Assembly (NCBI GenBank): GCA_018825725.1
Contig: JAHKBC010000332.1
Coordinates: 1-10,243, forward strand
DNA length: 10,243 bases
Direction: 5' to 3'
Source: Candidatus Omnitrophota bacterium
Lineage (GTDB): Bacteria; Omnitrophota; Gorgyraeia; Gygaellales; Profunditerraquicolaceae
Shown here: positions 8,105 through 10,243 of the stretch, piece after piece
Layout: each line of letters opens with the position of its first letter
Numbering within the stretch: position 1 is the stretch's first letter
Notes under the pieces: generated by a model
Database searches by the model: none
What the model was told of the DNA's origin: nothing
Seen by the model: the letters and a program-made list of their open reading frames with translations, nothing else
Program-made: the position numbers and the translations under genes

Positions 8105-9193
8105 TTAGCCCTTCACCTCAATCAAGGAATCTTTCTGGCCGTAGGGATTAACTGTCGTATTTGGATTATTCGGATCTTCAACCCAATCTCCGTCAACCAC
8201 AAATTTGTAACGGTATCTTCCTGCCACCAGGTCAATTTTTTTACCCCAAGAGCCTTCTGTGGACTGTTCCATGCGGCTATCTTCATTGACCTTCCAATCA
8301 TTAAAATCTCCCACCAGATGCACTTCTTTAGCCGCGCTATTCTTAAGCGAAAATACCATTTCGCTAAACTTAGGGATTTCTTCCTTAAGAATCTGCTTCA
8401 TCTTTTTATCCAGCGCATCCATAACCTTGGCCGGACCCTCTTCCATGGTAATAACCTCTCTGGCCAGGCTGAAATAATCTTTTGCCCCCCGGCAATATTT
8501 GTCAAATTTCCAGATATGCAAACCTTGGTTCTGGGCTTCCTTAAGCTTGACATTAACATGAATAATCGTAGAATACATCATCTTTTTAAAAGCGGACTTA
8601 ATCCTATCCAGCATAATGAAGGAATGGCGCAGGCGCGAGTCGAAATTGGTAACCAGGACTTTGGAATCAACTTTATGGTCAAGCCTTTCCTTGACCAGTT
8701 CGATTATACTGGTCAACTGAGATAATCCTTCCAGGGAAAAGCGACTGGCCTCTACAGGTATAATTATCTCATCAGTTGCCCGGACTGCATTAATAGTCAG
8801 GATCCCTAAGTTTGGCGGACAGTCTATCAAAATATAATCATAGTCAGCCTTAAAACCGCTCAAGATATCAGATAGCCGGGATTCTCTGCCAATCTCATAG
8901 GCCATCTCCTGCTCCAGGGTACTCAAAATAATGCTTGATGGCGCAATATCAAAATTTCCATCGACCTTTTGAATAATCTCGGGTAGTGAAGCGCTCTTAC
9001 TGGTGAGCTTGGACAAAACATTATAGATACTTAAGTCAACCTTAATATCTAATCCTAAAGTAGCGTGCGCCTGAGGGTCCAAATCAATAAGCAATACCTT
9101 CCTGTTATTCTGCGCTAAAGTTGCAGCCAAATTCACCGCAGTAGTGGTTTTGCCGCATCCTCCCTTTTGATTAGTAATGGAAATTATGCGCAT
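8105..9193 (-). CDS. ParA-family ATPase fused to a C-terminal AMPK/CBM48-type glycogen-binding domain
   Basis: The protein has 362 residues from ATG 9193. That start is chosen over TTG 9196 because the AAGGAGG SD lies six bases from the ATG and only three from the TTG. Residues 1-250 are a ParA/MinD-type ATPase: deviant Walker A KGGCGKTT (10-17) with the signature lysine, DLDPQAH (37-43), and Walker B ILID followed by CPPNLG (121-130). These proteins dimerise on ATP and set up moving gradients on DNA or membrane. No MinD-type amphipathic tail is present. After a charged linker (about 251-276), residues 277-361 form an E-set glycogen-binding module: VHLVGDFNDWK, then GRYRYKFVVDGDWVEDPNNP. W300, K330 and W337 correspond to AMPK-beta sugar-contact residues W100, K126 and W133. 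No ParB is encoded nearby. It lies between a membrane protein and the lysine-rich gene, with a GH57 gene just upstream. The domain calls are firm and the cargo is inferred. Confidence 0.92.
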   Translation of the reverse strand: MRIISITNQKGGCGKTTTAVNLAATLAQNNRKVLLIDLDPQAHATLGLDIKVDLSIYNVLSKLTSKSASLPEIIQKVDGNFDIAPSSIILSTLEQEMAYEIGRESRLSDILSGFKADYDYILIDCPPNLGILTINAVRATDEIIIPVEASRFSLEGLSQLTSIIELVKERLDHKVDSKVLVTNFDSRLRHSFIMLDRIKSAFKKMMYSTIIHVNVKLKEAQNQGLHIWKFDKYCRGAKDYFSLAREVITMEEGPAKVMDALDKKMKQILKEEIPKFSEMVFSLKNSAAKEVHLVGDFNDWKVNEDSRMEQSTEGSWGKKIDLVAGRYRYKFVVDGDWVEDPNNPNTTVNPYGQKDSLIEVKG

Positions 9194-9199
9194 CAATTG

Positions 9200-9206
9200 C
9201 CTCCTT
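9200..9206 (-). promoter_or_regulatory. SD that sets the parA start at ATG 9193
   Basis: AAGGAGG on the minus strand lies six bases before ATG 9193. The alternative TTG at 9196 would leave only three bases, which is too close. Confidence 0.75.
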
Positions 9207-9210
9207 TTAA

Positions 9211-9780
9211 TTATTTTAACAACACAACGTTATCTATATATAAAGCGCCGCTTTTATTTTCTACATTCCATTCTTCTAAAATAAATGCCAGGTTCAACAT
9301 GTCTGTCCAATCGGTTATGCCCTTAAAATCATCCATGAGTATCCGGTATGCTTTCCAGCGAAATGGTATATTCTTAAGATAAAGTTCTGACTTCTCCTTA
9401 AAGGAATTTACAAATTCAGTCCTCACAGACACATTATCCTTAATGTCGCTCTTTCTCAATGAAACCCCTAAGTATTTGTATTTACTTAAGTTTAATCCGT
9501 TTAGATTTATGGCATATATTTGTTTCTTGCCGGGGTCAAATTTAAACCCAACCTTAACCGAATCTGACAGAAGCACATAGGTGGACTCTGTGTTTATTGG
9601 GTTACTCCGCACCTGGGCAATAGTAAAATAGAGCGATAACGCCAATAATATAATAAGGATAAAGCTCGGATATAAATATTTGTATTTTGTTTTAGGCGGA
9701 GAGACAACTTCATTCTTTTTTTTTAACGAATTATCGAGATAAACATTTGCCAGGTGTTCGTAGATATCCTGTTTGTTCAT
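9211..9780 (-). CDS. single-pass membrane protein with an outer beta-sandwich-like domain
   Basis: This 189-residue protein belongs to no family I can name with certainty. Residues 1-36 are a charged cytoplasmic segment (starting MNKQDIYEHLANVYL), residues 37-57 are one membrane helix (YPSFILIILLALSLYFTIA), and residues 58-189 are extracytoplasmic. The outer part has strand-like segments and ends with IPFRWKAYRILMDDFKGITDWTDMLNLAFILEEWN, then GALYIDNVVLLK. That order (F/W-x-x-Y-R-I-x-M-x-D-F, then a helix, then a G-x-x-Y-I-D-N-V strand) recalls the galactose-binding-like beta sandwich of CBM11/CIA30-type domains, so sugar binding is possible. It is the first gene of the operon with parA, with only 17 bases between them. 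No SD precedes the ATG, and the predicted transcript starts about three bases before it. Confidence 0.75.
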   Translation of the reverse strand: MNKQDIYEHLANVYLDNSLKKKNEVVSPPKTKYKYLYPSFILIILLALSLYFTIAQVRSNPINTESTYVLLSDSVKVGFKFDPGKKQIYAINLNGLNLSKYKYLGVSLRKSDIKDNVSVRTEFVNSFKEKSELYLKNIPFRWKAYRILMDDFKGITDWTDMLNLAFILEEWNVENKSGALYIDNVVLLK

Positions 9781-9789
9781 ATTGCCATA

Positions 9790-9819
9790 AGTATATCACA
9801 GAGCTTTACCAAATGTCAA
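9790..9819 (-). promoter_or_regulatory. near-consensus sigma-70 promoter, predicted leaderless
   Basis: TTGACA (9814-9819, six of six) and TATACT (9790-9795, five of six) are separated by 18 bases on the minus strand. Transcription should start near 9783, about three bases before the ATG at 9778-9780. No SD exists, so the mRNA is probably leaderless. This is the best promoter in the window and drives the membrane-protein, parA and lysine-rich genes. Confidence 0.7.
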
Positions 9820-9829
9820 CATTTTCGTA

Positions 9830-10243
9830 TCAAGCAACCAAAGGATGATGTAAATACTCCGGAACAGCTTTACCTATAAGTTTGTAAAAATTCTCTAGAT
9901 GCATGCGGTATAAATAATCAAAGCTCGCTTCATTATCTCCGTACCACCAAAACCAGTCACTGCCTTCTAAGATATACATCTGTTTCCAAGCCAAGTCTGG
10001 AATTACCTTACCCTCATCTTCCAGTTTCTTGATTTCTTTTCTTGCTGCGGCCAACCACTCCCAAGCCTTAACTTTATGGGGATTGCCGATCCATTTACCA
10101 AACTCCCCGTATATCCATGAGCCGGCAGCCAGGCGCTTGATATTCCTTTTTTTAGCTTTGGGGTTGTTTTCAAAATATTTTTTGAGAGTTGTAGTCTTTA
10201 CAAAATCCGTTTCCATTAATCTTTGATATAAAAGATTCAGGAA
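9830..10243 (-). CDS. GH57 glycoside hydrolase, C-terminal 137 residues
   Basis: The frame is open to the window edge: nine codons precede the first ATG at 10216, so that ATG is internal and the gene starts outside. Motifs typical of the C-terminal region of GH57 alpha-amylase/alpha-glucan enzymes are present: VKTTTLKKYFE, GSWIYGEFGKWIGNPHKVKAWEWLAAAR, and YILEGSDWFWWYGDNEASFDYLYRMHLENFYKLIGKAVPEYL. The family hydrolyses or rearranges alpha-1,4-glucans. The catalytic (beta/alpha)7 barrel is not in the window, so substrate and activity cannot be judged. No signal peptide can be assessed. It ends 50 bases before the next gene, and a promoter lies in that gap, so it is probably the end of a separate upstream operon. 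The neighbouring CBM48-type ParA protein makes a shared alpha-glucan theme plausible. Confidence 0.85.
   Translation of the reverse strand, partial: FLNLLYQRLMETDFVKTTTLKKYFENNPKAKKRNIKRLAAGSWIYGEFGKWIGNPHKVKAWEWLAAARKEIKKLEDEGKVIPDLAWKQMYILEGSDWFWWYGDNEASFDYLYRMHLENFYKLIGKAVPEYLHHPLVA

Follow-up and report, generated by a model that had tools for sequence, protein, structure and literature searches.

Among the cargoes and sites positioned by ATPases of the ParA/MinD group are DNA, carboxysomes, chemoreceptor arrays and the division site. In the described cargo systems, a dedicated ATPase paralogue acts with a partner whose N-terminus contacts the ATPase and whose remaining part provides the link to the cargo (PMC10241942, in its accessible part). 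The carbohydrate-binding module (CBM) of AMPK is an allosteric sensor of glycogen, for which the accessible part of PMC2642990 names W100, K126, W133, L146 and T148 as glucan contacts. The window, i.e. the whole stretch of 10,243 nucleotides analysed here, is an entire contig (JAHKBC010000332.1, C127) from an assembly of Candidatus Omnitrophota bacterium (GCA_018825725.1; 1.57 Mb, 363 contigs, 81% complete). It includes a gene for a Soj-type ParA ATPase joined to an AMPK-beta-type (CBM48-like) module, hereafter ParA-CBM. The reading preferred here, which is given an even chance of being correct, is that ParA-CBM is a positioning ATPase with an adjacent partner that contacts it via an N-terminal peptide, and that its CBM binds a cytosolic alpha-glucan. 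A literature search, whose coverage left out most subscription papers, revealed no description of a ParA with a CBM, in agreement with an earlier note made from the sequence alone, whose author knew of no such system.

The gene occupies positions 8105–9196 on the minus strand (363 residues), or encodes 362 residues from the ATG at 9193, which is preceded by GGAGG at a distance of 6 bases and is a likelier start than the in-frame TTG at 9196. Residue numbers refer to the 363-residue frame. Residues 2–176 match Pfam AAA_31 (5.9e-55) and residues 288–362 match AMPK1_CBM PF16561 (4e-12; 46.6 bits, cut-off 26.8), with a further match to PF02922 (30.2 bits, cut-off 22.4), and the CBM part alone matches AMPK beta-1 (1z0n) at 1.6e-9. 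The domain composition proposed in the earlier note was thus correct. The top NCBIfam match is ParA_partition at 106 bits, under the cut-off of 180. The ParA part has the Soj fold, and the deviant Walker A sequence KGGCGK is present in all 76 fused proteins aligned, followed by T in 75 and by S in one; by fold and motif, ParA-CBM belongs to the ParA family. Basic positions R188, K200, K217, K219 and K233 are kept in the ParA domain in the same alignment, and ParA-CBM may bind DNA. Targeting to the membrane in the manner of MinD was considered and dropped, as the C-terminus is modelled as the beta sandwich of the CBM and not as an amphipathic helix.

By profile, the C-terminal module belongs to the AMPK-beta/CBM48 domain family, and its glucan binding is putative. 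The list of structural neighbours of the ParA-CBM model spans residues 1–254 only, and hence the CBM was compared by sequence. W301, K331 and W338 align with W100, K126 and W133 of AMPK; these are the residues that the earlier note, using the ATG numbering, had placed at sugar-contact positions as W300, K330 and W337. Both tryptophans are found in 80/80 aligned sequences, the window counted and the truncated L047 dropped, and the pocket aromatics are therefore conserved in orthologs, as the earlier reading needed. Position 331 is occupied by K in 24, R in 40 and Q in 16 of these sequences, and position 356, which also aligns with an AMPK pocket residue, is N or D in all except two of 76.

Locus counts rest on 81 loci, namely the window and the best 80 places in the contig search, so that there are at least 80 relatives. 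The fused loci among these belong to Omnitrophota, Desulfobacterota, Myxococcota, Eisenbacteria, Rokubacteria, Auribacterota, unnamed bacteria, and records labelled Pseudomonadota or Planctomycetales; the Planctomycetales-labelled L018 sits within Omnitrophota in the tree and may be mislabelled. Of 7,999 candidates scored in the protein search, 7,995 passed E ≤ 0.001; there may be plain ParAs among these, and PF16561 is carried by the at least 120 protein matches listed. In the tree, which includes 76 of the 81 sequences (L044, L047, L053, L067 and L075 left out), the fused ParA domains of the window and 75 relatives are split with support 100/100 from 20 ParAs of ParB loci, all from Omnitrophota. 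Given this separation, the fusion looks like a single event that gave rise to one old family across several phyla, and the domain pair recurs well beyond the window on one branch.

The probable partner is the membrane protein of 189 residues (9780–9211) encoded directly upstream of ParA-CBM. Its cluster (c1) takes this place in 45 of the 47 clade-1 loci, the remaining two starting at a contig end. The N-terminal peptide IYEHLAxVYL ranks among its most conserved parts, with Y7, H9, L10, A11, Y14 and L15 present in ≥90% of the 45 proteins (the extraction pattern missed two of them, the truncated L012 and the variant L031), and is a candidate for the contact with ParA-CBM. The earlier note had recognised neither this likely adaptor nor its peptide. 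In the model, the outer domain has a fold like that of CBM11 from Clostridium thermocellum Lic26A-Cel5E (6r3m) at 16% identity, which is consistent with the sugar-binding outer domain that the earlier note had considered possible. The window protein gave no match to Pfam or to CBM-family profiles; one relative (L028) showed only weak MAM, SGBP and CIA30 matches (0.03–0.1) and another (L002) none of CBM kind.

Outside Omnitrophota, the protein encoded downstream opens with a peptide that is ParB-like (LGRGL) or related to it and is fused to other domains. Since the peptides of these neighbours are carried on different domains, the ATPase with its constant module may belong to a positioning system whose adaptors can be exchanged. 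The LG[RK]G[LIF] pattern gives a Fisher p of 2e-15, which is overstated because the pattern was picked with the sequences in view and because loci that are related do not count as independent. The conservation of the peptide within each group and the apparent likeness of LGRGL to ParB are retained.

Some neighbours outside the two Omnitrophota clades show further features. A conserved third gene of ~190–270 residues lies behind the partner gene (L060:5821-6624, L070:7864-8535 and relatives); the two products scanned gave no Pfam match, and in L080 it is joined to the ParB-like peptide. Eight Myxococcota partners (L062, L064, L067, L069, L072, L074, L075 and L079) align with MinD-type partners, show no recognisable P-loop in that alignment, and are possible pseudo-ATPases. 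In L073:9065-9946, the partner slot holds an AAA_22 ATPase (2.1e-18; ExeA-like reading) that starts with the hydrophobic KLEKLFSFFLT.

The glycogen gene context was judged using the curated cut-off in the case of GlgA and GlgB, whereas phosphorylase matches were taken at E ≤ 1e-20. For 117 Omnitrophota genomes, the occurrence of the fusion and that of glgA, as well as the adjacencies given below, were read by eye from tables among the matches listed. After seven unclear genomes (G011, G036, G048, G060, G064, G092 and G106) were dropped, glgA over cut-off was found in 78/83 genomes with the fusion vs 18/27 without it (Fisher p = 8e-4, kinship ignored). Small reduced genomes lack both, and of the nine genomes in which both are missing, six belong to families f30–f32. 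PF16561 is present in 99/117 genomes, and in 26/117, all outside the class of the window, a stand-alone PF16561 gene lies ≤250 bases from glgA on the same strand. An example is L084:1143-1424, where a stand-alone AMPK-type CBM gene (~90–140 residues in such genomes; PF16561 9.2e-16) adjoins glgA (PF08323 4.3e-91). The product of such a gene is possibly an accessory subunit of glycogen synthase. The genome of the window itself includes glgA, for which the earlier note had proposed to look, together with a phosphorylase-like gene and four GH57 matches; no TIGR01515 branching enzyme was found there at E ≤ 1e-60. Glycogen synthesis was inferred earlier for Omnitrophota, as stated in the accessible part of PMC8542988. 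The glgA co-occurrence and the stand-alone CBM genes adjacent to glgA support glycogen as the ligand in Omnitrophota, and that the ligand there is a glucan is judged probable.

On the minus strand, the reading order in the window is the end of a GH57 gene, the membrane protein, ParA-CBM and a Lys-rich protein, with gaps of 49, 14–17 and 45 bases (Table 1). As the window is a whole contig, the GH57 gene is truncated by the contig end. Its fragment of 137 residues gave no Pfam match over cut-off; it is 52% identical (1e-45) to the C-terminus of the GH57 protein of L025 (PF03065 2.8e-68, 230.8 bits) and aligns with the last 136 of its 516 residues. Contig C300 of the same genome ends within a GH57 gene (PF03065 2.2e-57, 195 bits), its last 9 bases are identical to the start of the minus strand of the window, and the reading frame runs on; as judged by the sequences, the first 401 GH57 residues probably sit on C300. 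From the 9-base match, the continuous frame and the L025 alignment, the operon is most likely porin – GH57 – membrane protein – ParA-CBM – Lys-rich protein. The earlier assignment of the GH57 enzyme is thus confirmed and the domains in its gene order hold, but the membrane protein gene lies between GH57 and ParA-CBM and is preceded by two genes, so that it is not the first of the operon.

Table 1. Features of the ParA-CBM locus. Positions refer to the window unless a locus is named.
Feature	Position	Strand	Basis or remark
ParA-CBM fusion gene	8105..9193	-	ATG start 9193, TTG 9196 in frame
Soj-type ParA domain, residues 2-254, Walker A NQKGGCGKT	8435..9193	-	
Linker, residues 255-281	8354..8434	-	Helical in model at lower confidence
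AMPK-beta/CBM48-type module, residues 282-362, W301 K331 W338	8111..8353	-	PF16561, 1z0n, conservation
Single-pass membrane protein, probable ParA partner	9211..9780	-	Adjacency of cluster c1
N-terminal peptide IYEHLANVYLD, candidate ParA-contact helix	9733..9765	-	Conservation; helix 3-22 in model
Transmembrane helix, residues 36-58, Lys-rich stretch ahead, N-terminus cytosolic	9607..9675	-	Model helix; sequence-based assignment of membrane role and topology
Outer domain, CBM11-like beta sandwich, residues 64-189	9214..9591	-	
GH57, C-terminal 137 residues	9830..10243	-	Cut by contig end; N-terminal rest probably on C300 behind porin gene
Porin, alginate-export type, PF13372 4.7e-28	L114:37-1350		Own genome; upstream of GH57
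Small protein, Lys-rich histone-H1-like tail and EF-Tu-domain-2-like part	7607..8059	-	Downstream of ParA-CBM; domain matches below cut-off

Across the 81 loci, the Lys-rich small protein (cluster c2) is kept in 41 and the porin cluster is present in 32, which makes it commoner than the GH57 cluster with 22. A GH57 gene near the fusion, for which the earlier note had proposed to search across relatives, thus recurs, but only in clade-1 Omnitrophota loci, and GH57 was dropped as a core component for these reasons. Downstream of the operon lies a gene for a DUF134 protein (7085–7390; PF02001 1.2e-24), whose cluster is present in 13 of the loci.

In the preferred reading, ParA-CBM would be a Soj-type positioning ATPase with the neighbouring protein as its cognate partner, which would contact the ATPase through the short N-terminal peptide in a ParB-like manner. 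The Omnitrophota partner would be anchored in the inner membrane with its CBM11-like domain outside, and the constant C-terminal CBM would hold an alpha-glucan of the cytosol, for which glycogen is the most likely candidate in Omnitrophota. If the system is Soj-like, ATP dimers of ParA-CBM would cover the nucleoid with glucan carried on the CBM, and the membrane partner would trigger ATP hydrolysis, so that dimers are released locally and cleared near the envelope. The positions of the membrane complex and of glucan bodies, or of enzymes bound to glucan, would in this way be set with respect to one another and to the nucleoid. Within the same scheme, the glucan would either move with the dimers or regulate the ATPase in the way that glycogen regulates AMPK.

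Several findings weigh against this reading. The position of AMPK L146 is mostly F or Y in the ParA-CBM family, and that of T148 is variable. In the Omnitrophota peptide, the Arg/Lys that ParB has at the centre is absent, and its match to the LGRGL and PRDL peptides is unconvincing. A clade-1 peptide profile scores 23 other peptides at background level (Mann-Whitney p = 0.23); a combined clade-1 and clade-2 profile gives p = 0.0016 with few individual matches, and the reverse test gives p = 0.0012 with only 4% of the clade-1 proteins above the 95th percentile. A single motif common to Omnitrophota and the other phyla was thus not upheld. In the family of the window itself, a stand-alone CBM gene (L082:1498-1773; PF16561 2.1e-19) adjoins lipid A (lpx)-like genes and not glgA. 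Among 23 carriers outside Omnitrophota, glgA over cut-off was found in 8, GlgB in 5 and a phosphorylase match in 6, and ten showed none of the three at the thresholds used. These absences are soft since the completeness of the genomes is not stated, and in two of the ten a match to the GlgA family fell short of the cut-off of 328.45 bits (G131, 272.6 bits; G139, 135.4). Hence, the link to alpha-glucan that the earlier note proposed is supported for Omnitrophota by glgA co-occurrence and is not matched in these ten carriers.

The earlier note took alpha-glucan, or an enzyme bound to it, as cargo for the simplest reading. Glycogen granules that ParA-CBM binds directly and either sets at intervals along the nucleoid or apportions at division would agree with the conserved pocket tryptophans, the co-occurrence with glgA, the stand-alone PF16561 genes near it and the GH57 cluster. 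However, a CBM on the ATPase does not by itself imply such a cargo, because in the systems covered by the accessible part of PMC10241942 it is the partner that links the cargo, and the partner of ParA-CBM is a membrane protein; moreover, the carriers elsewhere without the three classical glycogen genes do not fit, and genome reduction may have produced the link with glgA as a side effect, given the families of the genomes lacking both. Direct cargo binding is therefore rather unlikely, and a role as a sensor like that of AMPK is about as likely. In the latter, sugar bound to the CBM would gate the ATPase, and the complex of the partner would be positioned according to carbon reserves, as envelope assembly in Omnitrophota and as other complexes elsewhere. 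The allosteric action of the AMPK domain (PMC2642990, accessible part) and the variation of the adaptors by lineage around a constant CBM speak for such gating, and a connection with envelope and glucan is indicated by the porin, GH57 and the CBM11-like domain; on the other side, the stretch between ParA and CBM (252–288 in the window protein) varies from 17 to 72 residues in relatives and is modelled at lower confidence.

A slightly smaller chance is given to the module being a protein-protein or ligand-free E-set domain that resembles CBM48, in a system unrelated to glucan. The retention of the domain in carriers without classical glycogen genes and the differences at L146 and T148 would be explained, but not the invariance of both stacking tryptophans, the restriction of position 331 to K, R or Q, and the N or D at position 356, all aligned with the AMPK pocket. 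Least probable by a wide measure is an ordinary second ParA of chromosome or plasmid partition with a decorative tail. The Soj-like ParA domain and the sub-threshold ParA_partition match favour it, whereas the neighbours scanned have no ParB domain, the branch is separate from the ParAs of ParB loci, and the partner is membrane-anchored.

If the module binds glycogen, deleting a single gene could test whether bacteria actively place and share their carbon stores, and the energy reserve would be linked with the organisation of the cell via the kind of domain that animal AMPK uses. The conserved N-terminal peptides suggest a route to the adaptors of 'orphan' ParA proteins. More tentatively, the family may represent a class of positioning systems in several phyla, with a glucan module in the ParA ATPase and exchangeable adaptors, in which storage polysaccharide is partitioned or serves as a moving platform.

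By its make-up, the ParA-CBM system would work in the manner of ParA/MinD positioning systems; it is not ParABS, because no ParB context was seen and the branch is separate. No ParB domain was found in the neighbouring genes of the window or in the representative neighbours scanned (a subset of the 81 loci), and a canonical ParB is encoded elsewhere in 19 of 21 genomes. In contrast to ParA/Soj of ParABS, ParA-CBM bears a C-terminal CBM, and its partner is membrane-anchored or bears other domains. BcsQ, the MinD-like protein of cellulose secretion, is not known to have a CBM; cellulose synthase genes were not noticed beside ParA-CBM, though no dedicated search was made. With McdA/McdB, ParC, PomZ and other ParA/MinD cargo systems, ParA-CBM shares the dedicated ATPase paralogue and a partner with an N-terminal contact; a CBM on the ATPase of such systems is not mentioned in the accessible parts of PMC10241942, PMC13170346 and PMC7993993. 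The glycogen-binding domain of AMPK beta (1z0n; PMC2642990, accessible part) belongs to the same domain family and shares the W100/K126/W133 positions, while the L146 and T148 contacts differ; there the domain is part of a kinase subunit, whereas in ParA-CBM it is carried by a ParA ATPase.
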